Positions 17,401-45,471 of a DNA stretch of 64,000 nucleotides are shown in pieces. Origin of the DNA: an uncultured SAR116 cluster alpha proteobacterium (GTDB taxonomy: Bacteria > Pseudomonadota > Alphaproteobacteria > Puniceispirillales > Marisalimonadaceae); the NCBI GenBank assembly GCA_902615325.1, contig CACMOJ010000004.1, forward strand, positions 1 through 64,000. The letters run 5' to 3'. The notes under the pieces were generated by a model, which was not told where the DNA came from, did not search any database, and saw only the letters and a program-made list of their open reading frames with translations. A program made the translations under genes and the position numbers. The first letter of the stretch is position 1. Every line of letters begins with the position of its first letter.

Positions 17401-19191
17401 TTATCCTTGAAGTAAGGCTAATACAGTCTGCTTTGATGCATTAGCTTGAGCAAGCATTGAAGTTGATGCTTGAGCTAAAATCTGAGCTTTTGTCAATTTA
17501 GATGACTCAGAGGCAAAATCAGCATCAGTAATGTGACTTTTTGAAGCTTCTGTATTAAGAACAACATTCGTTAAATTTGAAACAACATTGTCTAATCTAT
17601 TTGAAATTGCTCCTTGTTCTGCTCTTGACAAATCAATCATACTTAATGCACCATCAACAATTGAAATAGCTTTTTCTGAGTTTGCGACAGTAGACAAGTC
17701 AACTGTACCTACATTAAGTAAAGTTGAAGTATCAGCTGATGTTCCACCACCTGTAAAGTCATCAGTTATTGCTGTTCCAGAACTTGATGTTACTGCAAAT
17801 GATTTAACTGAGTCAAATTGAACTTGACCTTTGAAGAAACCTCCAGCTGTATCATTTGCAGCTATGTAACCCGCATTTATATTACCAGCAGATGACGCAG
17901 ATATTGCTATGCTTGTAACTGTAGCAAACTGCTTAGTTGTTGTAACTGTAGCAGTGGCACCACCAGTTAAAGTTTCAACCAATGCTGAACCACTTAAATC
18001 TGTACCAGTAATTGTAACAGAAGCACCAGAGTCATCCCCAGATGATGTAACAGTAACGAGAGCACCAATGTGTGTACTCGCGTCAACAACTGATAATGTG
18101 TTAGTTTTTGCAATTGTAGCTAAAACACCTGCGGCACTAGCGGCACGAGCACCCATAACTATACCTTGAGTAGTTGATCCAGACGATAATGCTTGTGTAG
18201 TAGTTTCATCTGCACCCAAAGATCTCATTGTCATTGAAACACCAGTACTTAACATTCCAGATATTACAATGTCTTCTCCAGTTGCATGAGTTAAGAGAAT
18301 TCTACTAGAGTCAGCATTTTTCAAATTAGCTGTGATGTTAGTAGTACCAGTTTTATCATTGATAGCATCTCTTAATGCTGTAAGATCTGAAATAGATGAT
18401 ATTGCTGTTGTGTTTATAGTTGCAGAATTAGTACCATTACCAATAACAAAACCAATGTTACCTGCTCCACTTAAACCAACAATTTCAGCTTTTGTTACAG
18501 CAGAAGCTTCAACACCGGTAGATTCAGTTTGTCCATTTACAGCGGATGCAAATGTTGCAGCACTTGCGCCAGCTGCTACAGTAACTTCACCTTGACCAAT
18601 ATGACCATCAATTGTGTAAGTTTGTGAATCTATTGTTGCCGTTGAGCCAGCTACGTGAAATGCTGTACCTTCTACTCTATTAGTACCTATAGATGTTGCT
18701 TTAACATTTCTTATAGCTAAATCAATATCTTCAGATCGTTTGTGACCAACTTGTAGCTGAATGTCGTCGAATGTACCATCAAGAAGTTTCATTCCGTTCC
18801 ATCTAGTTTGATCACCAATTCTATTAATCTCAGCTAAAATCTGATCTGCTTCTTTTTCAAGGTAAATTCTGTCGGTTGCAGAATTTGTGTCGTTTGAACT
18901 TTGAACAGCAAGTTGTCTTAATCTTTGAAGTAAATTAACAACTTCCTTTTGTGCACCTTCTGCAGTATCTATCATAGCTTGGCCGTCAGAAGCATTTCTT
19001 ATTGCCTGATTAAGACCTCTTACCTGGCTTTCTAATTTATTAGAAATAGAACTGCCTGCGGCATCGTCAGCAGCAGAATTAATTCGCAAACCTGTGGAAA
19101 GTCTCTCGATAGCACTTTCTAGGTTTGCGTTATTTTTAGACATTGCAGCTTGTGCTGTTAAAGCCCCAACGTTTGTATTAATAACAGTCAT
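17401..19191 (-). CDS. fliC: Flagellin (2)
   Basis: A 596-residue flagellin distinct from flagellin 1. The N-terminal D0/D1 is TVINTNVGALTAQAA with RLSTGLRINSAADDAAGSSI (residues 2-170). The C-terminal D1/D0 ends ASTSMLAQANASKQTVLALL. The central region holds a flagellin-IN-like part (about 240-320) and, at about 370-445, one copy of the ~80-residue module found eight times in FlgK. It is preceded by AGGAGAT and a GTCGTTTT element rather than a sigma-54 site, so it is probably a late, FliA-dependent gene. FliD lies directly upstream in the same orientation. Confidence 0.92.
   Translation of the reverse strand: MTVINTNVGALTAQAAMSKNNANLESAIERLSTGLRINSAADDAAGSSISNKLESQVRGLNQAIRNASDGQAMIDTAEGAQKEVVNLLQRLRQLAVQSSNDTNSATDRIYLEKEADQILAEINRIGDQTRWNGMKLLDGTFDDIQLQVGHKRSEDIDLAIRNVKATSIGTNRVEGTAFHVAGSTATIDSQTYTIDGHIGQGEVTVAAGASAATFASAVNGQTESTGVEASAVTKAEIVGLSGAGNIGFVIGNGTNSATINTTAISSISDLTALRDAINDKTGTTNITANLKNADSSRILLTHATGEDIVISGMLSTGVSMTMRSLGADETTTQALSSGSTTQGIVMGARAASAAGVLATIAKTNTLSVVDASTHIGALVTVTSSGDDSGASVTITGTDLSGSALVETLTGGATATVTTTKQFATVTSIAISASSAGNINAGYIAANDTAGGFFKGQVQFDSVKSFAVTSSSGTAITDDFTGGGTSADTSTLLNVGTVDLSTVANSEKAISIVDGALSMIDLSRAEQGAISNRLDNVVSNLTNVVLNTEASKSHITDADFASESSKLTKAQILAQASTSMLAQANASKQTVLALLQG
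17865..18080 (-). repeat. Filament module copy in flagellin 2
   Basis: Encodes a unit of the form VTVTSSGDDSGASVTITGTD...GNINAGY. It matches the FlgK module consensus (VTI-S-G-SS-FTV-GTD-GN-E-TG-FK-ITSI-GNV-IGT). Confidence 0.6.
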
Positions 19192-19271: not shown

Positions 19272-21224
19272 TTAATCTTTATTAAATGATTCCATTAAAT
19301 TGGTCATGAATTCACCAGTATTTTTTAGGCTTGATATAGCCCCTTCCATCGCTGTAAATTGTTTTTTATATCTCTTTTCTAGGTTTTCACTAACAGTGTC
19401 AAGGTCAGTAAGTTCAAGATTAAAATCAGAAATATCTTGATTAAATTCGATCTCTTTGTTTGCTAAATCACCAGATACTTCTAAAAGTTTGTTGGTGTAT
19501 TTACTTAATTTTTCAACAAGACTTTCACCATAGAAAATAAATGCACTATCAACTGTCTGTGAGGGAGTTATTTTTATACCAGTTGCATCACCGGTCGTAC
19601 TAGCATAAAATGTATTGCCATTGTCATCTGTACCAGATGTCATGCCTAATCCATCAAGTGTAGCCGTACTATTTCCACTATCAAAAATAAAAGAATATTG
19701 TCCAGGCTTTGGTTTTATTGTTGTGTCGGAAGTGACTGACAAAAAAGCTGAGTTTGAAGAAAAAGATGAAATAAAAATTGCATTAAAGGCGTTTGGGTCT
19801 GCTAAAAAATTCTTTTTAAACTTTGCTTCATCTACTGAAAGACTTCCATCTCTGGCCGTTTGAAGGCCAAGACTTGAAGCATAATAATCATTTGAGCCAA
19901 AACCATTCAATTTTGAATTTACTAAATTATTTAATTGATTTTTTATAACTCCTATCATCACATCATCTGATAAAGGTCCCCTATTTTCCTCTAAATCAGA
20001 AGATTTTGTTAATTCCTCGAATAAAGATCTTGTTTGATTAAATGCACTTACAAATGTTTTCATATTTTCTAAAGAGGTATCTTCATCCAAAGAAGAAGAA
20101 ACTCTAAATGAAGAACTAGTTGTAGCACTAATTGACAGACTATATCCTTCAAATATGTCAGTTACAGTATTGGATGATCTATTTATACTAACTCCATCAA
20201 CAGTTAATTCTGCGTCAGAAGCAGATGTAGTTTGATGAGAATTGTTATCTGAGGTTGTGTCTAAAACTGAAAGTCCTGTGTCACCAGAATTTTCAGATAC
20301 TGTCAATCTTAAGGCACTATTTCTACCAGTATCAGATCTTAAAACAAGAGAATATGTTCCATCTCCTTTGTTAAGAACACTGGCAGTAACACCAGATATT
20401 TGGTTTAAATTATTTGCGATAGTTTCTATTGAAGAACCTTGGGTGATTGTAACTGTTTTGGATGTTTTAGCAGTATTTTTTCCAAATGTGTTGGCAGAAT
20501 GCCCAACAGTAACAGTTCCAGTTCCGACAGTTGACCCTGGGGTAATACTCGTTATAGATTTAAACACATTAATGCTTGAAACAGTTTGGCCATCTCCACC
20601 ACCTGTTACAACTTCAGTAACATTATTACCAGCCATATCTTTTCCAATTATGGTAAATGAAGTCGAGGACTGATTGCCACCAGCTGATGTAGATATAGTT
20701 ACTTGCCCGCCTAATGAATTATGACTAATTGGAGTTCCCAGTGAAGTACTTGCACTAACTGTTGTTCCTGAAGCAAATAATGAATCTGTATCTGTCGCAG
20801 TTCCATCGCTTGCAATCCAATTTCCAAAATCTATTGTTATCACTCCAGAACCAGTAGTAGATGTAGGTAAAGCAAAACCTGAAAATTCTAATGTTTGGGG
20901 AGTTGCTAAAGAAGAAATATTTATATCTGAGCTAAAAACATTTGCTTTGCTAGAATCAACAACGTTTAAAGATGTATTTACATTTCCACTTGCAGTTTTA
21001 AACTTAGATACATTTGTCAATGAAATAAGACTAGCATTAAGATTACTCAATTCACTTTTGATCTGTCCCAGAGCAGAAATATCTAAATTTTTTCCATCAA
21101 TTTTTTTGTTTATTAAATCTACTTTTGGTTTGGTTTCAGCTTCTACAAGACTTTCTACAATCTGTGTAATATTTAAACCACTTCCTTTGGTATTAATCGC
21201 GCTTACATAATCAACTGCTGCCAT
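19272..21224 (-). CDS. fliD: Flagellar filament cap protein FliD
   Basis: A 650-residue hook-associated protein 2. The N-terminus has the FliD signature (GLNITQIVESLVEAETKP, residues 17-34). The C-terminus has the coiled-coil end (FTAMEGAISSLKNTGEFMTNL, about 622-642). Between them lie a FliD_C-like region (SKLNGFGSNDYYASSLGLQ) and one module shared with FlgK at about 160-245. FliD caps the growing filament and guides flagellin assembly. AGGACG precedes the ATG. Two promoters overlap upstream, one sigma-54 and one of the GTCGTWT type. Confidence 0.92.
   Translation of the reverse strand: MAAVDYVSAINTKGSGLNITQIVESLVEAETKPKVDLINKKIDGKNLDISALGQIKSELSNLNASLISLTNVSKFKTASGNVNTSLNVVDSSKANVFSSDINISSLATPQTLEFSGFALPTSTTGSGVITIDFGNWIASDGTATDTDSLFASGTTVSASTSLGTPISHNSLGGQVTISTSAGGNQSSTSFTIIGKDMAGNNVTEVVTGGGDGQTVSSINVFKSITSITPGSTVGTGTVTVGHSANTFGKNTAKTSKTVTITQGSSIETIANNLNQISGVTASVLNKGDGTYSLVLRSDTGRNSALRLTVSENSGDTGLSVLDTTSDNNSHQTTSASDAELTVDGVSINRSSNTVTDIFEGYSLSISATTSSSFRVSSSLDEDTSLENMKTFVSAFNQTRSLFEELTKSSDLEENRGPLSDDVMIGVIKNQLNNLVNSKLNGFGSNDYYASSLGLQTARDGSLSVDEAKFKKNFLADPNAFNAIFISSFSSNSAFLSVTSDTTIKPKPGQYSFIFDSGNSTATLDGLGMTSGTDDNGNTFYASTTGDATGIKITPSQTVDSAFIFYGESLVEKLSKYTNKLLEVSGDLANKEIEFNQDISDFNLELTDLDTVSENLEKRYKKQFTAMEGAISSLKNTGEFMTNLMESFNKD
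20485..20745 (-). repeat. Filament module copy in FliD
   Basis: Encodes SLGTPISHNSLGGQVTISTS...SSTSFTIIGKDMAGN...VFKSITSITPGSTVGTGTVTVG. It is closest to FlgK modules at 31865-32115 and 32170-32410, sharing even the SLG-I-SH-GG lead-in. Confidence 0.75.
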
Positions 21225-26277: not shown

Positions 26278-26299
26278 ATAAATCTCCAAAACTTAATAT

Positions 26300-26316: not shown

Positions 26317-26330
26317 CTAATATTATAAAA

Positions 26331-28055: not shown

Positions 28056-28062
28056 ATTTTAC

Positions 28063-28088: not shown

Positions 28089-28117
28089 TAATTTTGAAAG
28101 GTCACATAGGTTTACAA

Positions 28118-28501
28118 ATGAATTTCCATCACATGATGTCACAATATAAAGATATTGACATAATATCTAAAGTGGAAGGTGCTTCGAAATATGACTTTAT
28201 TAAAATCGTATTAGAAGAGCTTTACGTCAATCTACACATATTAGCTGATGCAATAAAAACAAAATCTAAAACTAATCCAGAAAAGTCAAAAAGTTTTGCA
28301 AAATCTCTTACTTCGCTTATGATTTTAATGGATAGTCTTGATTTTAAAAAAGGCGAACCAATAGCAAGTAATTTATTTAATTTATATGATTATTGTAGAA
28401 GATCTGTGATAGATGATTATCGAAAACTTGAAACAGATGGTATTATATCATCAGCAAATGTAATTGCCGATATCTTATCGGGATGGAAAGAGATTAAATA
28501 A
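28118..28501 (+). CDS. fliS: Flagellin export chaperone FliS (2)
   Basis: A 127-residue FliS paralogue. It has LEELYVNLHILADAI near the start, MDSLDFKKGEPIASNLFNLYDYC (read from about 75) and the end GWKEIK. The LD-KGE-IA-NL-LYDY pattern is closer to textbook FliS than copy 1. The open frame reaches a TTG at 28094, but that lies at the predicted transcription start. ATG 28118 with AGG seven bases upstream is preferred. Two flagellins with two FliS genes under different promoters suggest dedicated chaperone-flagellin pairs; this pairing is inference. Confidence 0.75.
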   Translation: MNFHHMMSQYKDIDIISKVEGASKYDFIKIVLEELYVNLHILADAIKTKSKTNPEKSKSFAKSLTSLMILMDSLDFKKGEPIASNLFNLYDYCRRSVIDDYRKLETDGIISSANVIADILSGWKEIK

Positions 28502-28578
28502 AAATAAAATATTGTCTTGAATTTAAAAAATAAAAATTATAAAAAATACTAGATATAATTATTGATTTTAGAGAGATA

Positions 28579-29070
28579 ATGTCAAATTTTTGTCCAGAAT
28601 GGATATTTGGTGTATGTAGTGCTTTAACAGCTAAAGAATTTCTAGCTAGTGAAAATTCTTTGAATTCAGTTGCTAGAAAATATGCATCAGGATTATCAGA
28701 AAAATATAACGAAATTAAATTTGAAGAATTATCAGAATGCGCAGAACAAATTCTTCAATTTTTGTCTGAAATTGAGGCTAACGATGAAGCTACCAACTAT
28801 ATTGATAGATATAACTATAGGAGAGTTTGTTTTAAAGCTAATGGTGCAGAGAGAAAGATTTCAGGTGTTTTTTCGTCAGCTCTAGACCCTATTAAACAAA
28901 AAGAGTACCAAATCAAAAATGTTACAAAAATTTTTAGAGCAACAATTTTCGGTTTGAGAAATCATACTGTCGAAGACATGCCACCTGGATGGGATATTTC
29001 AGAGGTTGACGAACTTGATTGGTTTGGAGAATTAATAAAAAAACCAACAGACATTCTAGATAATTTTTAA
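28579..29070 (+). CDS. Hypothetical protein between fliS and flgL
   Basis: A 163-residue soluble protein without signal peptide or membrane segment. Cysteines lie at the N-terminus (NFCPEWIFGVCSA), an acidic helical middle follows, and the end contains TVEDMPPGWDISEVDELDWF. No family is recognised. GAGAGATA precedes the ATG. It follows the second fliS in the same direction and ends one base before the flgL stop on the other strand, so a flagellar role is possible but unproven. Confidence 0.55.
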   Translation: MSNFCPEWIFGVCSALTAKEFLASENSLNSVARKYASGLSEKYNEIKFEELSECAEQILQFLSEIEANDEATNYIDRYNYRRVCFKANGAERKISGVFSSALDPIKQKEYQIKNVTKIFRATIFGLRNHTVEDMPPGWDISEVDELDWFGELIKKPTDILDNF

Positions 29071-29071
29071 T

Positions 29072-30355
29072 TTATTTTATGTAATTAAATAAATTCAAAT
29101 CAGATATTTTTACAAAAGCTTGCTGACTTGCTTGGAGGCCAGTTAGTTGTGACTTTAAATCAGTTACTAATTTAGCTAAATCCGCATCTTCTAAATCACT
29201 CAAATCTTTTTTTATTGCTAAATCTCTTTGGTTTAAATTTTCGAACTGCCTTTCTAATAAATTTAATTTTGCACCAACTTTTCCTCTAAAATTAGCTATA
29301 TGAACTTGTGCATCAGCAATATTATTTAATTGAGATGTTGTTAATTGATTATTGTCATATAAAGTCTGAGAGTGACCAATTTTATTTCCACTTGCATCCA
29401 AAGGGTCAAAGGTGATAAATGATGTAGGAACTTCCTGAGCATGATTTATATAAGGAATTTCTAAATTTTTTATTTCAATTATACCTTCTTGACTTCCATC
29501 TAATTTAATTTTCTTTGGATTTGTAGATGATTGTGATGCTGTTATACCAATATTTGCGTCGTTTATTGCTTTAATTATATCTGCAGGATCTTCGCCTGTT
29601 AACTCAACAGATATATTTGCTGTTCCTGCATGCCCTGTGATATCAAATGACCAAGTTCCAAAATCACTATTTGTTATTTCAAATTCAGCGTGAGTATTTG
29701 CATTAGTAGCATGAACAGCATTTGAGGCTGTTCTGATTGAATGTGAAACATTTTCGAGCATAGTAAACATAGATACTGCTAAACCTGAAGATTCTTTTAC
29801 TTTTTGAAACAATGATTCTCCATCAACAGAGGTTTCCACAATCATTGTTTCAGAAATAGATAATGATGAAATTCCTGAATCTCCATGATATTTAATTTCA
29901 CCATTCAAGTTCTTTTGAAATGGCTGTTCTTTACTTTTATAACCACTAAATATAAAAGAACCATTAGCATCCTGTTGATTTGCAAGCGATAATAATTCTT
30001 CTTTCATCTCATTAATTTCTAAAGCGATTGCTTCTCTATCACTTCTCCCTAAAACATCACTAGATGCTTGAATCAAAAGTTCATTTGCCCTAATCATTAT
30101 CGTTGATAAATTTTGCAAATTTGTGTCAACTAAGCTTAATCTTGTTTGAGAAGAGTTAACATTTTTTAAATATTGGTCTAATTGTTGTTTCACTGTCTTG
30201 TAACCAGATAAATTTACAGACCCTACAGGATCATCAGATGCAACGACAATATTTTTACCAGATGAAATTTTATCTTGTAATTTTTGAATATCTTCATTTA
30301 AAGATGAAAATTGACGAATTTGTTGTTCATTAAATAATTTTGTACTAACTTTCAT
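29072..30355 (-). CDS. flgL: Hook-filament junction protein FlgL
   Basis: A 427-residue hook-associated protein 3. The N-terminus has the flagellin-like pattern (KVSTKLFNEQQIRQF; LQDKISSGKNIVVASDDPVG, residues 25-44). The C-terminal helix is FRGKVGAKLNLLERQFENLN (about 353-372) with LVTDLKSQLTGLQASQQAFV. FlgL joins FlgK to the filament. It is the last gene of the flgG-to-flgL run, one base after flgK. It is longer than enteric FlgL (about 320 residues) because of a central insert of roughly 100 residues. Confidence 0.9.
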   Translation of the reverse strand: MKVSTKLFNEQQIRQFSSLNEDIQKLQDKISSGKNIVVASDDPVGSVNLSGYKTVKQQLDQYLKNVNSSQTRLSLVDTNLQNLSTIMIRANELLIQASSDVLGRSDREAIALEINEMKEELLSLANQQDANGSFIFSGYKSKEQPFQKNLNGEIKYHGDSGISSLSISETMIVETSVDGESLFQKVKESSGLAVSMFTMLENVSHSIRTASNAVHATNANTHAEFEITNSDFGTWSFDITGHAGTANISVELTGEDPADIIKAINDANIGITASQSSTNPKKIKLDGSQEGIIEIKNLEIPYINHAQEVPTSFITFDPLDASGNKIGHSQTLYDNNQLTTSQLNNIADAQVHIANFRGKVGAKLNLLERQFENLNQRDLAIKKDLSDLEDADLAKLVTDLKSQLTGLQASQQAFVKISDLNLFNYIK

Positions 30356-30356
30356 A

Positions 30357-33300
30357 TCAAACTACTTTTATCAAAGCTTCAAATAACTCTCTTGCTGTTT
30401 GCAATATACGTGCCGATGCTTGATAAGCCTGTTGAAACTCTAGTAAATGAGAAGCTTCGTCATCAAGGCTTACTCCAGCGAATTCACTTTGAGCTGATTC
30501 AGCAGCCTTTTTATTACTATTTGCAGCATTTAGAGACAAATCATTTGCTTGAACATTTGATCCAACTTTAGCAACAGTATTTGAAAAAATTTCTTGAAAA
30601 TTTCCTTTATTTTGATCTCTCATCTTTTCTAATTGAAGGTCTAACATATTCAAAACATTTCTATTATCTCCTGTACCTTTAGTATTATTAGAAATAAGGA
30701 AACTATCTCCTATAATTGCTTCCTCAGAGAACTGAAACCTTGACCCGATAGCTTCAAAAGATCTGTTTTGATCAAGAATTCGAGTTGAAATTGAATGACC
30801 AAATTTTTTATCAAAAATTTCAACTTTATTTTTATTAAGTTTGTCAATTTTAATTTCATATTCTGTATTATCTAATTTTGGAGCATTTTCTAGAATCTTA
30901 TATTCTGAACTTATTTTTTTTGCACCACCGTTCATTACAACAGCTACAAGCTCTTCTTGAGGTAAATTAGAAATTATAATTTGTTCTGAAACAATATTTT
31001 TTGTAGAATTTTCTGGTACTTTGGCTTGAATTGGCTTTCCACTTAATGAAATTAATTGAATTTCATCATTATTAACAATTGCTCGAGTATTTTTAGTTTT
31101 CAATCCATAAAGTTTATGATTATTTGGATCTCTAGAAAGGATGACATCATTTTTGCCAATATTATGAGAGATTGAAAATCTTCCTGTAGCCTGAGTTCCA
31201 ATTGAAACATTTCCAGATTCAGTTGCGGATGGTACTATTGAACTAATTAACTTAAAAACCTTTTTACCATAAACAGTAGTATTATTTCCTCCCGTAATTA
31301 CCTCTGTCATTGAATTTCCAAACATATCAGTGCCAGTTACTGTAAACTTGTTAGATGTTAAATTACTTCCCGAAGTAATCGTAACCGTTGACCCATTAAT
31401 CAAAGCAGATTGAGCTAGAGTTCCTATTTTTACATCATTACCTGTCGCTGAAGAAGGTGTTATAGATAAGATTTCTTTGAACTCTACAGCTCCATTTACA
31501 GTCCCAGACCCTCCATTAATAATGTCACTCTGATATTTTCCATCTTTGTCATACCCAGCAACTGTAAATGTTTTTCCAGTTTCATTTCCTGTAAAAGTAA
31601 TTTGAACTTTAGCATATAAGTTTTTATTACTTTTTAATACACCATCCAAATTCAAAGGATCGGCAGAAATAATTTGTTTCGACTTAAACAAGCTATCATC
31701 ATCAGTTGTGCTGAATGCCCCATCAAATTGAAGTGCTGCAACAGAACTAATAGCCTTAGAAGTTACTAAACTATCATTGTCAGTACTACCACCTTTATTA
31801 TCATCAAAGAAGAGAGTTACTCCAGATGGTGGTGAATAAGAAATATCTGAATTGACAGCATAATCTACTGATACGTTACCAGTACCTACAGTACCTCCTG
31901 CTGAAATGCTTGTAATTGTGTTAAATGTTGTATTTCCAATTACAAATTCATTTCCATTAGCACCAGTTATGCTTTCAGAGATTGAATTACCATCTATATC
32001 AGTACCATTTACAGTAAATGTTGTTGAAGTTTGATTACCTCCACTTGCTGTAAATAATTTAACCTTGCCTCCATACCCAGTATGACTTTTAATTGAACCT
32101 AGTGAAGTATTTGCAGAAACAGTTGCTAAAGAAATAAGATTAATATCCCTAGAATCGTTATAGAAAACAGGCTGTGAATCTTTTCCAATTTCTACATTGC
32201 CAGTCCCGACTGAAGAACCAGTTGTTATTGAAGTAATTTTTCTAAATACTTTTAACCCAGTAGAAGTCTGCCCCCCTGTAGCTCCAGTTATGACCTCTGT
32301 CTGAGCAGTGCCAGACATATCGGTTCCTACAACTGTAAATTCAGTTGAAGATTGGTCTCCTCCAGAAGCTGTCGAAATTGTTACTTTTCCAGCTAATAAA
32401 TTTGTTGCATTTATGCTTAAAGTAGCGTTTGTTGAGATTGAATTCGAAGAAAAGAGTTGTGATGCATCAGAATTTCCAGCAAGTTTAACATAGAAATTTT
32501 CATAAGTATCTCCCGTATTAACTGAAAGTCTTAGTGGAATATTTTCTTCGTTATCATCAAATGATGGTTTTTTAATCAAATTACCAATTAAAGTTGTAGT
32601 TGCATTTGTCAAACCAAAATTAGAGGCATTTGACAAATTATTTGTATTTTGCACTAATTCAAATTGATCTCCTTCTATAGAACCCTCAGTCGAAATAGTA
32701 AGTTTATATCCAGGAGCGGTACCAACTTCAATATTTCCAGATGTGGAGCTAGTAGCTGATATTGAAGTTATAGTTTTAAATATCTTTAAACCGGATACAG
32801 TTTGACCTTTTTCACTACCAGTTATTTTTTCAGAAATAGAATTACCATCAAGATCAGTTCCAGTTACAGTAAAACTGTTATTACTTTCATCTTCAACTGA
32901 CTTAATAGTAACTCTTGTTCCTTGAAATGTTGTTGTGGCATTAACTCCATTTAATGAAAAATTGTTGCCAGCATTAACGCTTTGAGATTTTGCTAGAGCA
33001 TCTTCATCTAATGACGACATCTCTTCAAAAGAAGCTCTGACTCTATTATGTTCTAATCCTGACACTACCAATTCACCAGAATTCATGGATATTTCGTAAT
33101 CTTGACCTTCAAATATTAATGAGATTTTTGAATTCTCTTTAGGTAATTGATTAATGACCTCTCCTTTCAATAAAGATGTTGGAGACTCTTTTCTAAGTTC
33201 TTTTATTAGCTCGTTAGAAATTTCTTGAGAAGTGTCTGCATTTAAACTGTTGGCATCAATTTCTGCAATCCAAGAACTATCTCCTACTACAGTTCCAATC

Positions 33301-36300
33301 ATGATATTGCCGGTTGTATTGCTTGCTACAGTTATAGAAGTAACTTTTTTAAATACCTCAGTGCCTTCAATCGCACCCCCATTAGTACCTTGAATAGTTT
33401 CACTTATTGTTTTTCCATCCATATCTAAGCCATTGATGGTAAAACTATTTGAAGATTCATTTTCAGAACATTCCACTCTAATTTTGGCATTTAAATAATC
33501 TGCAGTAGATAACACCCCTTTCATGGTAATACTACCAGAAGAATAATTGTCATTTTTTACCAAAGAATCATAATCAATAAGTTTATGCCTTCCGCGTGTT
33601 CCTATTTCTATATTTCCGTTAGCTGTTGCAGTTGTAGTTATGGATGTAATTGACGTGAATATTTGCGCAGATTGAACACTTTCACCGTTTTTACCAGTAA
33701 CCGTTTCAGAAATAGTATTTCCATCAATGTTTTTTCCAACTATTACAAAACTATTACTAGTTTCATCACCTGAACAATTAATAGTAATAGACGAATTTAA
33801 GTTTGTTTCATTAATCAATGCACCATTTAGAGTTAACACGCCAGCCGCACCTGGATTAGAACTGGTAAACAAACTATCATCGTCTTTTGCAAAAACTCTG
33901 TAACCACTTAGTGGTATGTTTATCCCATAGTTTGATAATCCAGCTTGAGCTTTTTTACCATTTTCGTTGCTTAAATTATTATCTAACAATCCCATCGAAA
34001 TAGGTTTAAAATTAATTATTTCTCCTGAAGCATTATATTTTATATCATATAAATTATTTAACGATGGATCTTGTTTTGCACTAATTATTTGTCCACTATC
34101 AATTTGAGAATTAAAGTTTAAACTAGATTCAAATCTTATATTTCCCTTAACAAAAGCACTTTTTTCGTCTTCATCACTAATATCAATCCTATGCAATCTA
34201 TCATTCAATAATTCAAATTCACTATTAAGAATACCCATTGAAACATCCGATGGAGAAACAATATTAGTCATTTCTATATCATAACCTTCTTCGGAAATTA
34301 ATATAACTCTATCAAAATCAGACGTACTTACAGCTTTAATGTTTGTTTGAGATGTAAATTGATTTATTTGTTTAGCTAAATCAGATATATCATCTGAATC
34401 TACATTTGCAATAATTGAAACTTCTTCACTATTACTCCCTTTTAGATCAAAACTAAATGTACCACTTCCAGTTTTACTCAAGGGACCAATAGCTAAAATT
34501 GTTTTAGCAGAAGCAACAACTCCAGTGCCTACCAAATTTTCATTCAGTTTTTTTGCTGTATAATAGGCTGACGAGTTTATTGGTACAGATATTGTTTTAG
34601 ATTGATCATTATCATTAGTTATCTTTAAACTATAACCTGATGCTTTCGTTCCTATTTTAAGTTCTCCAGCAGCATTTGCACTTGAGGAAATAGATGAAAC
34701 AGACTTAAAAACTTTATTTCCAGTCACACTTGTTGCATTAACACCCGGTATAGTTTCAGATTGAAAATTTCCATCTAAATCATAGCCTTCCACAGTAAAA
34801 TTTACAGAGGAATCATTTCCAGTACTTGTTATTGTTACAAAAGCGTCAAGATCATTCGAATTACTCAAGACACCATCTAAAGTAAGGGAACCACTTAAAC
34901 TTGATGCATCTTTATTAGTGAATAAACCATCATTATCAGTCGCTTGTTTGTCATAACTAATATTAGCACCAAAGTCTAAAACGTAATCACCAGAAGTTGA
35001 AATTCTCTTACTATCTATTCCTCGATAATTAAGATTCAAATAATCATTTTTGTATTCTGCATTTTTAAGAAAGCCGTTACTTTCTTTAATAATTTTTGCA
35101 ATATCTGATGAGTTTAGTGCTGTTCCTGAGATATGCCTTCCATCTCTTGTAAATAATTGGATTTCACTTGCGGTTGCATCAGAAGTATCAATTTGTGATA
35201 TACTGGATGAGTATGTATTTCCATTAGATAAAATAGATGCTGATGTTACACTTGCATTACTTGATTTAATCGTAAGTGCACCATCTCCACCAGAGGCAAA
35301 AAGTCCATATTTCCTAAAGTTATGCTCATTTTTCCCATCAAGCGCTAAACCAGAGTTCAAATAATCAGCTAACTCTTTAACTGATCTTATTCCATCTCCT
35401 GGATCTTCATTTGCAGAAGTTAATGTCAATGAATTACCATCTGACAAATTTATTGTAATATTTGAAAACCCTTTAATTTGACTGTCATAAAGATTAAACT
35501 GTGCAGATGATTGATCTGCTAAAGAAGATAAATTAAAAAACTCTGTGCTTGGATTAATTATAGTAAAAGCACCATCATTCAAAAATTTTGATGCTAACAA
35601 GGGATTATTTGATGAAGAAAAGACTTCATCAATATTTCTTATATTACTTTTATTTATGATATTTTCTTTTCCAATTATTTTTAAGTCAGCTTTACTAATA
35701 TTATCTAAACTTGATGAAATAATTTGTTTTGATGCAGCAGCCAGAGATGAAGGGTCTTTTAATAAAAAAGAAAATGCAGAGGCTTTGGATGAATTTGGTT
35801 CAATTATAAATTGATCATTGTCAGATATTTGACCTTTTATTTTTAGACTAAATCCCTCGAAATTTAAATTATTATTACCATAAATTTTTATTCCTTCAGA
35901 ACTTGATACTTCCCAACTATTTGATGAGGCAAGATATTTGAATTTTATTTTTTCTTGATTAATGAGATTTTCATTACCTACAATCATATCTACATTAAAA
36001 CCACCAACGTTTTGTTGAATTTTTGGTTTCATTGAGTTGATAGAGAACATCGAAATACCTGTTTTACCATTTAAATCGATGCCATTTTGCTGTATTTCGT
36101 TAAAGTTTTGTGACAATCTGAAAGCTAATTGATTAATTTCAGATTCTACTTCTCCAACAAAATCATAGAAATTCTTTACTCCGAACAATAATCCTGAAGA
36201 CACATCATTATTTATTGAATTTATTCCATTTCTAGAAATATTAAAAATTAATCTTCCTTCTTGAATATCTGACAACAAAATTGATTTATTTGTCTTTTCC

Positions 36301-37019
36301 AATAAAATTTTACCATTTCCAGAATTTCCTAATCTTATAATAGCATCATTACTATCGCCATAATCTACCGTAAAATTAATATATTTTGATAAATCTAATA
36401 GTAATTGATCCCTCGCATCTAAAATGTCTGGTGATGAATTTTTTGATCCTCCACTCATAATTAATTTATTGACCTGAGCAAGTTGATCCACAAGTGAATT
36501 GACAACCTTTAAATCATCTTGCACCTCTTTATGAGCACTTGATTTAAAGTTTTTTAATTGATTGTCATAATTGTTAAATGAATTTGCAAGAGCTTTACCA
36601 TTTTCTAATGCAACAGTCCTAGCTGACAATTCATCTGGTCTTGAAGCAATATCTTGTAATGAGTTAAAAAATCTTCCTATAAAGGTTCCAAGATCACTAT
36701 CACCTGGGAGTAACATATTTTCTAATTTGTTTAATTTATTAACAAAGCCATCTAATCTCTCATATTCACCATTTGTGTCTCTTAAGTTAGATGATAAAAA
36801 TGCATCAAATGATCTTCTAATTTGATTAACCCTTACCCCTAATCCTGACTGATCTGGGACATTAGTTACTCCACCTTGAACACTGGGAACTTCTTCAAGG
36901 TCAGCATTTCTTTTATTATATCCTTCTGTATTTACATTGGCGATATTTTGACCAGTAACTGCCAAAGCTTGTCTATAAGCTTGTACACCGGATTTACCTA
37001 TTTCAAATAAACTAGCCAC
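30357..37019 (-). CDS. flgK: Giant hook-filament junction protein FlgK
   Basis: A 2220-residue FlgK, about four times the usual 450-650. The ends are canonical: FEIGKSGVQAYRQALAVTGQ and NIANVNTEGYNKR at the N-terminus, SLDDEASHLLEFQQAYQASA and LQTARELFEALI at the C-terminus. In between are the ordinary FlgK domains (to about 640), then a region with one flagellin-like domain (about 790-1000) and eight copies of an ~80-residue module (consensus with FTVxGTDxxGN, ExITG, FKxITSI, GNVxIGT). It has no internal stop in 6.6 kb, so selection keeps it intact. It probably forms a large exposed collar at the hook-filament junction. Confidence 0.9.
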   Translation of the reverse strand: MASLFEIGKSGVQAYRQALAVTGQNIANVNTEGYNKRNADLEEVPSVQGGVTNVPDQSGLGVRVNQIRRSFDAFLSSNLRDTNGEYERLDGFVNKLNKLENMLLPGDSDLGTFIGRFFNSLQDIASRPDELSARTVALENGKALANSFNNYDNQLKNFKSSAHKEVQDDLKVVNSLVDQLAQVNKLIMSGGSKNSSPDILDARDQLLLDLSKYINFTVDYGDSNDAIIRLGNSGNGKILLEKTNKSILLSDIQEGRLIFNISRNGINSINNDVSSGLLFGVKNFYDFVGEVESEINQLAFRLSQNFNEIQQNGIDLNGKTGISMFSINSMKPKIQQNVGGFNVDMIVGNENLINQEKIKFKYLASSNSWEVSSSEGIKIYGNNNLNFEGFSLKIKGQISDNDQFIIEPNSSKASAFSFLLKDPSSLAAASKQIISSSLDNISKADLKIIGKENIINKSNIRNIDEVFSSSNNPLLASKFLNDGAFTIINPSTEFFNLSSLADQSSAQFNLYDSQIKGFSNITINLSDGNSLTLTSANEDPGDGIRSVKELADYLNSGLALDGKNEHNFRKYGLFASGGDGALTIKSSNASVTSASILSNGNTYSSSISQIDTSDATASEIQLFTRDGRHISGTALNSSDIAKIIKESNGFLKNAEYKNDYLNLNYRGIDSKRISTSGDYVLDFGANISYDKQATDNDGLFTNKDASSLSGSLTLDGVLSNSNDLDAFVTITSTGNDSSVNFTVEGYDLDGNFQSETIPGVNATSVTGNKVFKSVSSISSSANAAGELKIGTKASGYSLKITNDNDQSKTISVPINSSAYYTAKKLNENLVGTGVVASAKTILAIGPLSKTGSGTFSFDLKGSNSEEVSIIANVDSDDISDLAKQINQFTSQTNIKAVSTSDFDRVILISEEGYDIEMTNIVSPSDVSMGILNSEFELLNDRLHRIDISDEDEKSAFVKGNIRFESSLNFNSQIDSGQIISAKQDPSLNNLYDIKYNASGEIINFKPISMGLLDNNLSNENGKKAQAGLSNYGINIPLSGYRVFAKDDDSLFTSSNPGAAGVLTLNGALINETNLNSSITINCSGDETSNSFVIVGKNIDGNTISETVTGKNGESVQSAQIFTSITSITTTATANGNIEIGTRGRHKLIDYDSLVKNDNYSSGSITMKGVLSTADYLNAKIRVECSENESSNSFTINGLDMDGKTISETIQGTNGGAIEGTEVFKKVTSITVASNTTGNIMIGTVVGDSSWIAEIDANSLNADTSQEISNELIKELRKESPTSLLKGEVINQLPKENSKISLIFEGQDYEISMNSGELVVSGLEHNRVRASFEEMSSLDEDALAKSQSVNAGNNFSLNGVNATTTFQGTRVTIKSVEDESNNSFTVTGTDLDGNSISEKITGSEKGQTVSGLKIFKTITSISATSSTSGNIEVGTAPGYKLTISTEGSIEGDQFELVQNTNNLSNASNFGLTNATTTLIGNLIKKPSFDDNEENIPLRLSVNTGDTYENFYVKLAGNSDASQLFSSNSISTNATLSINATNLLAGKVTISTASGGDQSSTEFTVVGTDMSGTAQTEVITGATGGQTSTGLKVFRKITSITTGSSVGTGNVEIGKDSQPVFYNDSRDINLISLATVSANTSLGSIKSHTGYGGKVKLFTASGGNQTSTTFTVNGTDIDGNSISESITGANGNEFVIGNTTFNTITSISAGGTVGTGNVSVDYAVNSDISYSPPSGVTLFFDDNKGGSTDNDSLVTSKAISSVAALQFDGAFSTTDDDSLFKSKQIISADPLNLDGVLKSNKNLYAKVQITFTGNETGKTFTVAGYDKDGKYQSDIINGGSGTVNGAVEFKEILSITPSSATGNDVKIGTLAQSALINGSTVTITSGSNLTSNKFTVTGTDMFGNSMTEVITGGNNTTVYGKKVFKLISSIVPSATESGNVSIGTQATGRFSISHNIGKNDVILSRDPNNHKLYGLKTKNTRAIVNNDEIQLISLSGKPIQAKVPENSTKNIVSEQIIISNLPQEELVAVVMNGGAKKISSEYKILENAPKLDNTEYEIKIDKLNKNKVEIFDKKFGHSISTRILDQNRSFEAIGSRFQFSEEAIIGDSFLISNNTKGTGDNRNVLNMLDLQLEKMRDQNKGNFQEIFSNTVAKVGSNVQANDLSLNAANSNKKAAESAQSEFAGVSLDDEASHLLEFQQAYQASARILQTARELFEALIKVV
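31190..31405 (-). repeat. FlgK module 8
   Basis: Encodes VTITSGSN..NKFTVTGTDMFGN..EVITGG...VFKLISSI...SGNVSIGT. Full-length copy; boundaries approximate. Confidence 0.7.
31419..31650 (-). repeat. FlgK module 7
   Basis: Encodes AKVQITFTGNETGKTFTVAG-YDKDGK...FKEILSI...GNDVKIGT. Immediately precedes module 8. Confidence 0.7.
31865..32115 (-). repeat. FlgK module 6
   Basis: Encodes SLGSIKSHTGYGGKVKLFTA, then STTFTVNGTDIDGN...FNTITSISAGGTVGTGNVSV. Closest, with module 5, to the FliD copy. Confidence 0.75.
32170..32410 (-). repeat. FlgK module 5
   Basis: Encodes GKVTISTASGGDQSSTEFTV, VGTDMSG, EVITGATGGQT and FRKITSITTGSSVGTGNVEI. Same TASGG-QSST core as the FliD copy. Confidence 0.75.
32710..32950 (-). 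repeat. FlgK module 4
   Basis: Encodes RVTIKSVEDESNNSFTVTG, TDLDGNSISEKITG and FKTITSISATSSTSGNIEVG. Confidence 0.75.
33280..33520 (-). repeat. FlgK module 3
   Basis: Encodes IRVECSENESSNSFTINGLD, ISETIQGTNG and FKKVTSITVASNTTGNIMIG. Confidence 0.75.
33590..33830 (-). repeat. FlgK module 2
   Basis: Encodes ITINCSGDETSNSFVIVGKN, TISETVTGKNG and FTSITSITTTATANGNIEIG. Confidence 0.75.
34635..34875 (-). repeat. FlgK module 1
   Basis: Encodes VTITSTGNDSSVNFTVEGYD, SETIPGVN and FKSVSSISSSANAAGELKIG. Separated from module 2 by the flagellin-like domain. Confidence 0.7.
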
Positions 37020-38500: not shown

Positions 38501-39166
38501 CTAAAATGGTGATATCGCTCTTATGAACATACTACCCCAACCTGGCTTTGATTCATTTGATAAAGTTCCAGCACCAACATACTCAATTTGAGCTTCAGCT
38601 ATCAAATTTGATGAAACAGTATTTGACGCGCTTATATCTTGAGGTCTAACTATGCCAGCTAATCTTATATATTCTGACCCGTCTGTTAGTCTTAATCTTT
38701 TTTGACCTTTTATTTCTAAATTTCCATTTGGATAAACTTTTACTACAGTTGCTGAAATAAAACCAGTCAATGAATTTGACTGAGATGCTGACCCAGAACC
38801 TTTGAAACTATTTGATTTAGAAACATTACCACCAAGTCCAGCAAAGTTTCTTAAAATCCCCGTTGGACCAACCTCAGCACCAATAGAATCTTCTTTTGCG
38901 CTTTGACTAGTAACAGACTTTGTTGAAGAGAAAGTCTCGCTTAATTGTACAGTTAATATGTCTCCGACTTGGTGAGCCCTTTTATCTGACGAAAATAAAC
39001 CTGGAGAAGAAGTGCTGTATATTGCACCATTACTTGCTTTTGTTGCTTTCATCTCTGAAATTGTTGGAACAAGTGGCTTAAAATCTTTGTTAATTGCTTC
39101 TTCAACATACGTCGAACAATTAGTTATTATTAATAATAATACAAAACTTAAACTAAACTTTTTCAT
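38501..39166 (-). CDS. flgH: Flagellar L-ring lipoprotein FlgH
   Basis: A 221-residue outer-membrane ring lipoprotein. The signal peptide ends with a lipobox-like ITNC, making Cys17 the acylated residue. Conserved parts are SLFSSDKRA-type sequence ([20 protein letters not shown]), [27 protein letters not shown] and ending in [12 protein letters not shown]. It forms the L ring with FlgI below it. AAATGAAAAAG start region; same operon as flgG and flgI. Confidence 0.93.
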
Positions 39167-39187
39167 TTTTTAAACTTCTTTATCTTC

Positions 39188-40803: not shown

Positions 40804-43800
40804 TTATGCTCTAATTTGAATAATTGCCTGAGTTAAAGTCGTATTTGTTTCGATGGTTTTGGCATTAGCCTGAAAGTTTCTTTGAGCTGTAATTAAGTTT
40901 ACAAGTTCTTCGGTAATATCAACATTTGATCTTTCAAGAGAACCTGAAAGTATTGTACCATAACCATCAGCACCAGCTTCACCAACATTTGCAACACCAG
41001 AAACCGACGTCTCTACATATGTAGCGTTACCAATCTGCTTTAAACCATTTTGGTTATTAAAATTTACAGTAACTAATCTTCCAAGAGCAATGTTTAAACC
41101 GTTTGTATAGTTAGCACTCACTAATCCATTTGAAGCCACATCTAGACCATCAAGCTTACCAACAGTTTGACCGTCTTGAGTTACAGATCTTACGTTAAAA
41201 TCTGATGCAAATTGTGTGGACCCATTAAAATTTAAATCAAGATCAATAGACAATGCAGACTGATCTAAATCAGCATTTGCTGCAAAGTCGCCTTTATAAC
41301 CTACTTTTTGAATTGGACTAACAAGATTACCTTGAGTATCAAAAGTTAATTCACCAGGTCTTAAATATACCTTAGCAAATGTTCCATTTGTAGTGGGTGT
41401 CCAAGCGCTATCAGGTGCTAAAGTAGTAGTTGTTCCTGCATCATTCACAAAAAGTGACTGCCCCGTAGCTGACTTTGCTGTAGCATTAGCCATATTAACA
41501 AATGAAGGAGTAGATCCTGTCTGTAATTCTAGATTATCTAATCCTAATCTTGTACTTCCAGATACAAATATTTTACTATTTGCACCAGTTGTTCCAGTTG
41601 TGAAGGTAAAAGAATTTGATACTGTATTATACACTACAGTAACTCCATTTACTGTATTACCAGAACTATCTTCCATTTGATTAATTCTTTCTTGTAGGGC
41701 TGTGGCTAATTGTGTTCCATTATAAACACCCTCAGGAACTTTAATAGCAGCAGTTATGTCATTTACGTTAACAACAAATATAGTTTCTTCTGCAGCTTCA
41801 GATAAAAAGAAGTCTTCTGATAAATCCTCGTTAGAAGTTTTACCTGTAAGAACAGCTGCTGTTGACTTTAAACCCTGTCCAGCACCCTCACCTGTAGCAG
41901 TAGAAATTGCAGTCGTCGCGTTTACACCAAGAAGAGCATTTGTTCCTCCTGTTCCAGTGGTTGCAGCTGTTGCAACACCATCAACAATAGCTAATCTTCC
42001 TATTTCAATATTAGAGGAAGCTTGACCAGCATCACCAACGCCAACAGCTGAATTTGAAGGAATGTTCTCACCAGTCGTACCACTAGATATACTAAATTTC
42101 CTTGTTAAGTTATTATACTCAACTTCTACACCAAAAGCTCTCTGAGTGTCAGCAGCAATCTGATCACCTTTAAATACAACTGACTCAGCTTTAAGTACAG
42201 CACCACCACCAATATTTGCTGTTGCTTTATTAGCTAATGTTTTTAGTCCAATAGCATTTGACCCAGTTCCTTCTCCAGGCGCAAAAGCAGAAAAAGAAAA
42301 CATCTTACTAGATGTTGATGTTCCAATTTTTGAAGGTACACCTTGCAAAGTAAAATTTTGACCTGATGAATCATATGCTATTTTCAGTGCTGGATCATTT
42401 TCATCCACCCAATCATCAGTTATTCCCAGATCTTGAAAAATGGAAACATTATCATTATGAGCTGCAGCAGTTGTGCCACCAACACCTCTTGTTAATCCAG
42501 TAAAAGTTGTAGCAGTTTTACCAGTATATTGGACTAACTCATTTTCAATTCTGAGAAATCCACTATCATCAAAACCCGTTGTGTCATCAACAGTAATAGT
42601 GGTCGCCGCATCTGTAATATTTGATGTATTATTAATCAATGTGTGTCTTCTTTCTAACCCTAAACCCTCTATACTTTCAACAAGACTAACTTCAGGTAGT
42701 AACGTTATTGTTGCGTTATCTGCATGAGTAGCGGCTGTAGTTCCATTAGCACCACGAGTTAATCCAGATAAAACACTTCCTGTATTACTAGTATACGTTA
42801 TTTGTTCTGAACCTATTAATATAGTTCCTTTTGACGGTAATGGACCATTACTGGTTCCATCATAATTGATTGTTGTTTCGGTAGCAGTTAAATCATCATT
42901 TCCTGAAGTATCTGAATTATCGTTTAAAACTGCAGTAGCTGAGGCAGAAGCAGATGTACCATCAACTCCCCTTGTAACACCTGTAAAATCAGTACCATTA
43001 TCATCAAGGCCAGTGTAAGAGATTTTCTCATTACCTATTTTGATTGTTCCAGTCGCTGGAAAACCTGCAGTAGAACCTACTGTTAATGTTCCTCCTGTAG
43101 CTGGAGTTCCAGTCGCAACAGCAGCTGCAGTAACTGTATTCCTTAATTCATCTCTAAAATCACTTATTATACCTTCAGTAAATGATACTAATGAAACAGC
43201 TGTATCATCAACTATATTGTTAGAACTAAAGTCAGTACTCGAAATTGTAATTTGATTAGTGGATGTATCGGTAGCGGAGTAATCAACCTCTGTTGTTCCA
43301 ATTTTAATTCTTCCGCCAGTTGAAGGAAATCCTGTTACATCGTCAACTGTAATAGTCGTTGTAGTAGATGAAGTTAATGCTCCATTTAATAACGTACTTG
43401 GTTGTTTTAAATCCTTATTAAGATACGCATGCTTGTTTAATTCTTTTAGAACAATTCTTTTACTTCCAAAATGAGTTGTTTGATTGTCAAAAATGTCTGA
43501 ACCACCCTCAAAATAGGCGTCTACATCTTTTGAAGCTGTGTGTAGAACTTTAATTTTAGTGTCTGTAATATTTATAGCTGCTGTAGAGTCTGATTTTAAG
43601 TTAAGAAATTTATTACCATTTGCATCAGTTCCAGCACTTGAAACAGAAAACTTTGCACCATTATACTTTAAATTGTTTACAGTTGAAGTAGTTGTATCAA
43701 ACTCCCCTGCAAGATAAACTTCAGTGGGAAATGAAGTTGTTGAAATAGTATCATCAGGATCATTAATAAATACTTTTAATGTTCCACTTGCATCTTGGAC

Positions 43801-45471
43801 CATAGTATTACCGCTAACAGCCTTAACATCTAAAGATTTTTCAAAAACTTTCAATAGCGGTGAATTGTTATAATAACTATGCAATAAAAATTTTGTTTCA
43901 TCAGTTGCGGCTTGTTCATTAGTTAAATCAGTGGATGGTTGCTTATAGTTAAAACTTAAAACTTCAGTTTCTTGCACAGCTCCAGCTAATTTTGTTCCAG
44001 TTGCTCTTGCAAATAAGGCTGAACTCACTCCGTATGTTGAAGCATTGTTAGTGGCACCATCTGCTGACACACCAGCTCTGTTTAGTGCATCATTAATTCT
44101 CAATTGAGCGTGTGCCAAAAACTCTTCTCTTTTGAAGTTTGGTGATGCAACGTTTTCAATTCCGCTAGTTGTACTGAACAAATCTTCTGTTACAAAACTA
44201 TCTTTCATTAAGTCAACATTTATTGCAGTAAGAGTTTGAAGTTCATCATTGTTATCTAATTGGTTAAATTGAATTGAAAAACTACCATCAGTAACAGGAT
44301 CTATGGATAACTTTGAGTCATCACCAAGTCCAGCGTTAATAGCTCTTTGAACCTCTTTAGCTAAAGTGGCCGCTGTATAGGTTCCTGGTCTAATATCAAT
44401 ACTTTTGAACGCAGCACTACCAGTCGTGTCATCTACTCTGACTGTTAGGAAATCTTTTCCCCAATATGTTGACTTATTCAATGTTGGGTTGGCTTCATAA
44501 GTAGTATAATATTGCAATGGATCTGTTACGACTGTTATAGATGGAGCAGTAGTAGTAAAGGCAGCATCTTCTAAAACTTTATTTGAAATAGTAGCTGCTT
44601 TCGAAGTTGTTTTGTTTGCTAAATCATCAAGAAAGAATAATGGTTGTGTTTGAGCTACTGAAATAATTTGAGGTTTTTCATCTATTGGAATTACTTGACC
44701 AAATCTATCAACTACCAGGGTTTGTCCAGTAGGTGAAATAGCTTCTGTAAGAGATGGTTCAACTTCTCTTCCATCAACAATAAATTTTGTTTGATATTTA
44801 TGTGTTACATTATCTCCAGATGCAGCTTGAGTTTTTATAAAAAATGCAGTTGCAATTACTGGATTACCCAAATTATCAAAAATTGTAACAGAAGTTGAAG
44901 AATTGAAAGTTTCAGGATTTGATGGGTCAAAATCATCAGCATTTGCAAATACAGTTGAAGATGCAGGTAAGTTAACAGATAATGCTAAATTTTTAGTAGC
45001 TTTTGCTTCACCAGCTTCAAGTTCAAGTTTTAAAGGTTTCGCATCTACAATTTCACCACCTTGAACAGATCCATCATTTGATACAGGAAGTGCTAAAACA
45101 TACTGACCAGCTGAATCAACAACAAATCTATCGTTATTAACTGAGAAAGATCCATTTCTGGTGTAAACTGTTTGGTTAGTTGTAAGAGAAGGTCTCAAAG
45201 CAAAGAAACCTTGACCAGATATCGCTAAATCAAGTGCATTAAGGGAAGATGTAACATTACCTTGAGTAAATTGCTGTTTAATACCTTTTAAAATAGTACC
45301 AGAACCAATTGATGATGATGCATTTTGTAATGGTGAGGTTGCAAAAATATCACCAAATTCAGCTTTACTTCTCTTATAACCTGTAGTAGCGACGTTTGCT
45401 ATGTTATTCGAAGTTGCTGAGATGTCAGCCTGAGATCCATTCAAACCTGTTAAAGCGGTATAAAACGACAT
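40804..45471 (-). CDS. flgE: Giant flagellar hook protein FlgE
   Basis: A 1555-residue hook subunit, about three to four times normal. The N-terminus is canonical (FYTALTGLNGSQADISATSN, NIANVATTGYKRSKAEFGDI) and so is the C-terminus (VDITEELVNLITAQRNFQAN, AKTIETNTTLTQAIIQIRA). The middle contains two copies of a domain with I-V-PG-YT-LA-vqxAIN character (about 345-390 and 1240-1300). Four ~60-residue repeats lie at about 700-1015, with TTITVDDTTGF, GxIxIGxExIxYTG and FTGLTRGxxGT motifs as in phage virion proteins. AAGGAG precedes the ATG. The frame is intact over 4.7 kb. Confidence 0.92.
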   Translation of the reverse strand: MSFYTALTGLNGSQADISATSNNIANVATTGYKRSKAEFGDIFATSPLQNASSSIGSGTILKGIKQQFTQGNVTSSLNALDLAISGQGFFALRPSLTTNQTVYTRNGSFSVNNDRFVVDSAGQYVLALPVSNDGSVQGGEIVDAKPLKLELEAGEAKATKNLALSVNLPASSTVFANADDFDPSNPETFNSSTSVTIFDNLGNPVIATAFFIKTQAASGDNVTHKYQTKFIVDGREVEPSLTEAISPTGQTLVVDRFGQVIPIDEKPQIISVAQTQPLFFLDDLANKTTSKAATISNKVLEDAAFTTTAPSITVVTDPLQYYTTYEANPTLNKSTYWGKDFLTVRVDDTTGSAAFKSIDIRPGTYTAATLAKEVQRAINAGLGDDSKLSIDPVTDGSFSIQFNQLDNNDELQTLTAINVDLMKDSFVTEDLFSTTSGIENVASPNFKREEFLAHAQLRINDALNRAGVSADGATNNASTYGVSSALFARATGTKLAGAVQETEVLSFNYKQPSTDLTNEQAATDETKFLLHSYYNNSPLLKVFEKSLDVKAVSGNTMVQDASGTLKVFINDPDDTISTTSFPTEVYLAGEFDTTTSTVNNLKYNGAKFSVSSAGTDANGNKFLNLKSDSTAAINITDTKIKVLHTASKDVDAYFEGGSDIFDNQTTHFGSKRIVLKELNKHAYLNKDLKQPSTLLNGALTSSTTTTITVDDVTGFPSTGGRIKIGTTEVDYSATDTSTNQITISSTDFSSNNIVDDTAVSLVSFTEGIISDFRDELRNTVTAAAVATGTPATGGTLTVGSTAGFPATGTIKIGNEKISYTGLDDNGTDFTGVTRGVDGTSASASATAVLNDNSDTSGNDDLTATETTINYDGTSNGPLPSKGTILIGSEQITYTSNTGSVLSGLTRGANGTTAATHADNATITLLPEVSLVESIEGLGLERRHTLINNTSNITDAATTITVDDTTGFDDSGFLRIENELVQYTGKTATTFTGLTRGVGGTTAAAHNDNVSIFQDLGITDDWVDENDPALKIAYDSSGQNFTLQGVPSKIGTSTSSKMFSFSAFAPGEGTGSNAIGLKTLANKATANIGGGAVLKAESVVFKGDQIAADTQRAFGVEVEYNNLTRKFSISSGTTGENIPSNSAVGVGDAGQASSNIEIGRLAIVDGVATAATTGTGGTNALLGVNATTAISTATGEGAGQGLKSTAAVLTGKTSNEDLSEDFFLSEAAEETIFVVNVNDITAAIKVPEGVYNGTQLATALQERINQMEDSSGNTVNGVTVVYNTVSNSFTFTTGTTGANSKIFVSGSTRLGLDNLELQTGSTPSFVNMANATAKSATGQSLFVNDAGTTTTLAPDSAWTPTTNGTFAKVYLRPGELTFDTQGNLVSPIQKVGYKGDFAANADLDQSALSIDLDLNFNGSTQFASDFNVRSVTQDGQTVGKLDGLDVASNGLVSANYTNGLNIALGRLVTVNFNNQNGLKQIGNATYVETSVSGVANVGEAGADGYGTILSGSLERSNVDITEELVNLITAQRNFQANAKTIETNTTLTQAIIQIRA
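42430..43370 (-). repeat. Four phage-like ~60-residue repeats inside FlgE
   Basis: Units (gene order) at about 43190-43370, 42915-43110, 42690-42890 and 42430-42615. Shared signature: TTITVDDxTGF, then GxIxIGxExIxYTG, then FTGLTRGVxGTTAAxHxDN. The last three are closest to each other; the first lacks the LTRG part. Confidence 0.75.

Follow-up and report, generated by a model that had tools for sequence, protein, structure and literature searches.

A 2220-residue FlgK in a SAR116 alphaproteobacterium carries eight repeated modules with probable relatives among tailed-phage head-region proteins

SAR116 is a widespread marine lineage, represented here by a genome of 1.78 Mb (63 contigs, 82% complete) from which we analyzed one stretch of 64,000 nucleotides, hereafter the window. 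Its flgK gene occupies positions 30357..37019 on the minus strand and forms a single stop-free frame of 2220 codons with a GTG start at 37019. The encoded protein scores 240.3 bits against the FlgK model TIGR02492 (cut-off 170.75), and its ends are those of an ordinary FlgK, with FlgK_D1 (PF22638, residues 96-325) and the terminal rod/hook motifs PF00460 (Flg_bb_rod, N-terminal) and PF06429 (Flg_bbr_C, residues 2179-2218) all above their Pfam cut-offs. The N-terminal D0-D1 core (residues 1-340; 36000..37019, minus) is matched by the solved FlgK structures 9go6_A, 4ut1_A and 2d4y_A, the solved chains aligning inside residues 1-436, and the C-terminal D1-D0 part is encoded at 30357..30722 (minus). 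The FlgK N-terminus of the nearest named relative in our scan, the uncultured SAR116 isolate AG-914-E17, is 96% identical.

An earlier, sequence-only reading of the locus had described a FlgK of 2220 residues with ordinary terminal domains, built from repeated modules, and the open frame, the family assignment and the eight modules described below bear this out. Its further statement that more than 1200 central residues consist of eight modules plus a flagellin-like domain holds in part: both elements are present, accounting for ~620 and ~110 residues, respectively, but ~500 residues of the insert belong to other, unassigned segments. The flagellin-like segment (approximately residues 808-917; 34269..34598, minus) was recognized in one pairwise BLASTP comparison with the flagellin encoded at 8705-10486 (E 9e-13), and its match to the flagellin at 17401-19191 is weaker (E 1e-6). 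Pfam detects no flagellin IN domain in FlgK, and the assignment of the segment rests on the pairwise match; Flagellin_N (PF00669), by which a giant flagellin would be recognized, is likewise absent from the protein at E <= 1.

By iterated profile search we identified eight modules of ~77 amino acids in FlgK, and none further, all encoded on the minus strand: module 1 at residues 716-792 (34644..34874), module 2 at 1066-1142 (33594..33824), module 3 at 1168-1244 (33288..33518), module 4 at 1358-1435 (32715..32948), module 5 at 1534-1614 (32178..32420), module 6 at 1641-1721 (31857..32099), module 7 at 1793-1868 (31416..31643) and module 8, which abuts module 7 directly, at 1867-1943 (31191..31421). 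The domain E-values of ~1e-27 to 1e-34 are to be read as those of a profile built from these same eight modules; in the first single-sequence pass, before iteration, the seven other modules were already retrieved at E 1e-9 to 1e-18. Modules 2-8 share 34-45% identity with module 1, and TRF reports no tandem DNA repeats in the module region because the modules are too diverged at the DNA level. In translation, modules 2 (33594-33824) and 3 (33288-33518) have a cysteine at an equal position (NCSG and ECSE).

The module structure prediction that the sequence-only reading had proposed was carried out with AlphaFold2 on module 2 (alignment of 107 rows, 19 of them viral) and yielded a confident all-beta domain of ~77 residues (mean pLDDT 89.7) with predicted strands at 7-17, 25-31, 37-43, 49-64 and 72-76. 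A 901-residue model of modules 2-8 reached a pLDDT of 76.2 and a pTM of 0.42, a low global confidence as would be expected of loosely placed beads. A PDB search with the module model returned no fold match at E <= 0.001, and VIA-align gave no convincing chain (best Z 5.2, with Z < 8 being the tool's stated background). Foldseek results for the 901-residue model were discarded as meaningless, with TM-scores <= 0.10 by query length and rmsd values mostly of 20-40 Å.

In the flagellar cluster, flgK lies directly before flgL (29072..30355, minus), whose 427-residue product is of normal size; the call is based on Flagellin_N/C (Pfam), size and position after flgK, and FlgL has no clear match to either the FlgK module profile or the flagellin-like segment. 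The hook protein gene flgE (40804..45471, minus; identified as an ORF with Pfam and NCBIfam profiles) encodes a giant FlgE of 1555 residues that contains four copies of a ~63-residue module different from that of FlgK, at residues 700-758 (43198..43374), 789-853 (42913..43107), 861-925 (42697..42891) and 952-1016 (42424..42618), all on the minus strand. This second, virion-like type of module has phage matches of its own: the four-module stretch matches phrog_4406, a virion structural protein, in four stretches (E 4e-17), and also a constituent protein of Roseobacter phage CRP-901. Conservation in the cluster is lowest in the middle of flgE (~42500-43500), which is 60-67% identical to three close relatives. 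FlgE-type modules, three per protein, also occur in the FlgK (2374-2474 aa) of five relatives (L160 10001-17125, L161 4674-12098, L163 10001-17410, L164 10001-17410 and L166 10001-17416), so that beads seem to pass from one to the other of the genes for hook and junction.

The FlgK-type module likewise extends to other axial genes. Ten profile matches were obtained in the window's own genome, comprising the eight in FlgK, one in the flagellin at 17401-19191 (17866..18090, minus, E 4.8e-16; flagellin by PF00669/PF00700) and one in FliD at 19272-21224 (20499..20729, minus, E 3.9e-21; FliD_N/FliD_C). The flagellins themselves are 593-596 aa long. Of 136 genomes of the SAR116 order, 48 have the module, all but one of these (47) belonging to the window's family; among the loci examined from families f2-f4, giant FlgK occurs without it. 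The one genome from another family (G421, family f2) has a flagellin with two f1-type modules at locus L083, attributable to either horizontal transfer or a binning error. At the level of the class (289 genomes drawn), the module was present in three: the window's own genome, a prophage-like locus in genome G156, and a marginal hit in G083 (E 9e-4) that looks like chance. Between the flagellin genes of the window lie two TPR-type ORFs (10496-13390 and 13396-14835) with nearly identical C-terminal halves, as after gene conversion. The ORFs that flank the flagellin genes at 1548-7425 and 21289-23437 are putative methyltransferase, TPR/glycosyltransferase and CMP-sugar synthase genes, and flagellin glycosylation is possible.

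FlgK length was surveyed in 61 genomes, the window's own and 60 relatives, as had been suggested. The survey yielded 38 FlgK matches over cut-off, 34 of which lie in frames of >= 1200 aa (up to 2475 aa); the remaining four (401, 438, 340 and 962 aa) are on short contigs and extend up to a contig end. Within the SAR116 order, FlgK lengths of 1199-2475 aa occur repeatedly, also in single-contig genomes (1199 aa in G037, 1402 aa in G042 and 1620 aa in G048). Among 80 named loci, picked by their likeness to the giant-FlgK clade, all 63 complete FlgK proteins measure 1439-2474 aa. We can therefore rule out an assembly artefact that expanded the repeats, the circumstance named beforehand as fatal to the reading: the modules are diverged, TRF detects no tandem repeat, giant FlgK is encoded in single-contig genomes, and gene length and module order are equal in independent genomes.

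The FlgK modules are under purifying selection, as had been anticipated for the insert. Comparing the window with four close relatives, we determined dN/dS values of 0.09, 0.09, 0.11 and 0.12 for the eight modules together and of 0.05-0.11 for FlgK residues 1-340; within each module group the ratio is ~0.1 to 0.2. Orthologues have 7 to 10 module copies in largely kept order, with inserts 43-87% identical, and in the sampled orthologues the closest relative of each window module is the module at the same position, which argues that the array is old and has not been homogenized. Relative to AG-914-E17 (L147), the window's stretch at 26000-31000 is 96-99% identical over flgL and downstream and then 82-85% identical in the FlgK insert, a drop that suggests a mosaic produced by recent recombination. 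Recombination of the FlgK insert itself was rejected, because several genes upstream are also ~85% identical, so that the high-identity stretch, and not the insert, is what is unusual.

The surprising part of the finding is the link of the modules to phages. The route to it was the prophage-like hit in the class survey, G156, in which the gene of the module-bearing protein follows that of the major head protein; used as a query, this protein led to 50 viral contigs. Of the 53 loci formed by these contigs and L062, L066 and L067, a profile built from FlgK only detects the domain at E <= 0.01 in 49 and at E <= 1e-3 in 36, figures that include several near copies and contigs collected via a protein first found by the FlgK profile. 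In a profile-profile comparison, the FlgK module matches the phage protein with 97.5% probability (E 8e-12). Among 37 chosen upstream ORFs, 20 match phrog_10 and 8 match phrog_371, both of which are major head proteins, and in the phage record MW202545.1 the related hypothetical protein (38663-39628) stands directly after the annotated major capsid protein. Direct searches were negative: tblastn with two pairs of FlgK modules found no match at E <= 0.01 among 50,697 phage records, and one FlgK module as the sole query retrieved no viral relative. Foldseek against predicted viral structures (BFVD) returned uncharacterized Caudovirales proteins with probability 1.00, the hits at ranks 1, 2, 4 and 5 superposing with rmsd 0.8-1.2 Å over 66-70 residues at a modest best E of 1.0e-3; the models are predicted on both sides, and the query alignment had 19 viral rows. 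Judged by profile similarity, the FlgK module has a homologue in a phage protein whose gene usually follows that of the major capsid protein directly, and the predicted models agree in fold with the domain of that capsid-adjacent protein.

In the module tree, which is unrooted as regards the direction of transfer, phage and flagellar copies fall on opposite sides of one weak branch (83/64), the module of FliD groups with FlgK modules 5-6, and that of the flagellin sits close to where the flagellar side begins. The simplest history would be one acquisition from phage, a direction that we infer, followed by exchange among axial genes, most probably by duplication within flgK and transfer of a copy to fliD, the copy in the flagellin standing beside that group.

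Giant FlgE, too, is found throughout the SAR116 order; in the relatives' loci FlgE measures 1269-1709 aa and FlgL 300-430 aa where complete. A cultured relative, IMCC14465 of the PS1 clade, likewise has both proteins enlarged, with 1439 aa for FlgK and 1265 aa for FlgE. Class survey medians are 631 aa for FlgK and 498 aa for FlgE, and among the 115 genomes with both proteins, both exceed 1000 aa in seven, FlgK only in one, FlgE only in two and neither in 105. In the phylum survey (249 genomes), the window alone among the rows listed exceeds 1000 aa for FlgK or FlgE. The two lengths correlate with a Spearman coefficient of 0.43 over the 115 class pairs and of 0.66 over 27 pairs that we picked by hand within the clade, both uncorrected for relatedness. 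A FlgK tree of 31 rows places the 16 giant FlgK proteins on one side of one branch (support 96/95), so that giant FlgK and giant FlgE form, as judged from these sequences, one clade of marine Alphaproteobacteria, and their joint enlargement is best counted once. Phylogenetic replication of the coupling was looked for and not found.

What, then, might such a protein build? The part of PMC12221982 available to us describes the FlgK of Salmonella and Campylobacter as one ring of 11 subunits between the hook and FlgL. The reading that we hold slightly more probable than its opposite is that the window's FlgK, which keeps the ordinary D0-D1 core, would be seated in such a ring, with its outer domain enlarged about fourfold by flagellin-like segments and a string of small beta-sandwich beads, the beads facing outward. 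With FlgE about three times the normal size, the FlgK ring would continue and close off a thick hook, forming its distal rim, and the diameter would step down at the FlgK/FlgL boundary to a normal FlgL and filament. The outward beads and the thick hook are proposed by analogy with the Salmonella and Campylobacter junctions and with giant-flagellin filaments. The sequence-only reading had cast FlgK as a massive collar at the hook-filament junction; such a collar is plausible where it rims a thick hook, given the single 11-subunit ring, but not as a lone oddity or separate device, since the enlargement belongs to the whole flagellar exterior, with FlgE at 1555 aa and the FlgK-type module in one flagellin and FliD. 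Among the roles which that reading had suggested (surface adhesion, phage defence, junction stiffening), no specific result of ours favors any.

In favor of the distal-rim reading are the giant FlgE and normal FlgL beside the giant FlgK, the co-occurrence in the class survey, the standing of giant FlgK as a lineage trait under selection, the position-locked modules, their phage homology and shuffling, and a precedent for FlgK following FlgE (PMC5691160, in its accessible part). Against it, the co-occurrence amounts to one event in a single clade, and the survey contains two genomes with giant FlgE and normal FlgK and one with the reverse. The 901-residue model does not fix the arrangement of the beads, the branch separating phage and flagellar modules is weak, and the Foldseek E-values for the viral models are modest.

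Of the rival explanations, adhesion fares best, although we regard it as unlikely: the modules would bind, making the FlgK ring and thick hook sticky towards particles, algae or cells. A series of beta-sandwich beads on an organelle that is exposed would suit this role, and phage proteins encoded beside capsid genes can themselves be displayed on the surface. The module model also resembles carbohydrate-binding modules weakly, among many unrelated chains, but at Z 3.8-4.6 these matches lie within the tool's background, Pfam and NCBIfam recognize no binding family in FlgK, and eleven subunits at the cell-proximal end would be an odd site for an adhesin.

We give little credence to an interplay with phages, in which hook, junction, filament and cap would display virion-like domains that serve as decoys or keep off phages binding to the flagellum. 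It would draw on the homology of the modules to proteins of phage head-gene neighborhoods and on the second virion-type module in FlgE. Decoys, though, would be expected to mimic receptors rather than capsid-side proteins, an arms race would change the modules rapidly where we find strong purifying selection and locked positions, and there is no sign that module-bearing phages infect SAR116. A purely mechanical role, with beads that stiffen or damp the junction irrespective of FlgE size, strikes us as comparably improbable; the Salmonella junction does buffer stress between hook and filament (PMC12221982, as far as its available text goes), yet such a role leaves the giant FlgE and the modules in FliD and flagellin unexplained. 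Least credible is neutral expansion, that is, inserts tolerated without gain in exposed loops of axial proteins: flagellar outer domains vary greatly in size among species (PMC6248924 and PMC5691160, both in their accessible portions), but the low dN/dS in each module group, the largely kept order and the conservation of the inserts already disfavor it.

More broadly, and with rather less confidence than for the distal rim, we propose that the exterior of the SAR116 flagellum, at the hook, the junction, the cap and some of the filament, might consist of beads of two types, both domesticated from structural proteins of tailed phages and handed on from one axial gene to another. The hook would then be thick and armored and end in a FlgK rim of ~2.5 MDa, an estimate based on 11 x 2220 residues. 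Should structure follow the sequences, the hook and junction of the SAR116 flagellum would be exceptionally large. The system is a natural test of the size that axial proteins can reach and still be exported through the channel and assembled, and of whether the size of FlgK has to follow that of FlgE. It would also link phage head-region domains to domains of the flagellar surface.

We found no paper on SAR116 that treats flagella and FlgK, and none that reports an oversized FlgK or flagellar modules related to phages, in a search that covered subscription journals thinly. Among known systems, the FlgK (HAP1) of Salmonella and Campylobacter (9go6, 2d4y) has the same termini, the same D1 family and a gene directly before flgL; 9go6_A aligns with the window's FlgK at 118 bits, with its best stretch at residues 1-436, but is 553 aa long, whereas the window's protein has ~1250 extra central residues with eight repeated modules. 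In the available text of PMC5691160, Campylobacter FlgK is argued to have changed because the hook protein gained extra domains, a co-divergence alike in setting an enlarged FlgE beside an enlarged FlgK; that text reports no repeated or phage-related modules, unlike the FlgK described here. It also gives FlgL of 750-950 residues for Campylobacter and relatives, so that of a junction scaled in this manner the window has the enlarged FlgE (1555 aa) and not the enlarged FlgL (427 aa). The giant flagellins of Bermanella and Oleibacter, for which the accessible part of PMC6248924 shows thicker filaments, are likewise oversized marine axial proteins with an internally repeated, exposed insert, but there the oversized proteins are the flagellins, whereas here they are those of junction and hook. 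With the uncharacterized capsid-adjacent protein of Caudoviricetes (for example in MW202545.1), finally, FlgK appears by profile and predicted fold to have a ~77-residue domain in common; the phage protein, known by its gene position, mostly carries one copy in 200-300 aa and is not flagellar.
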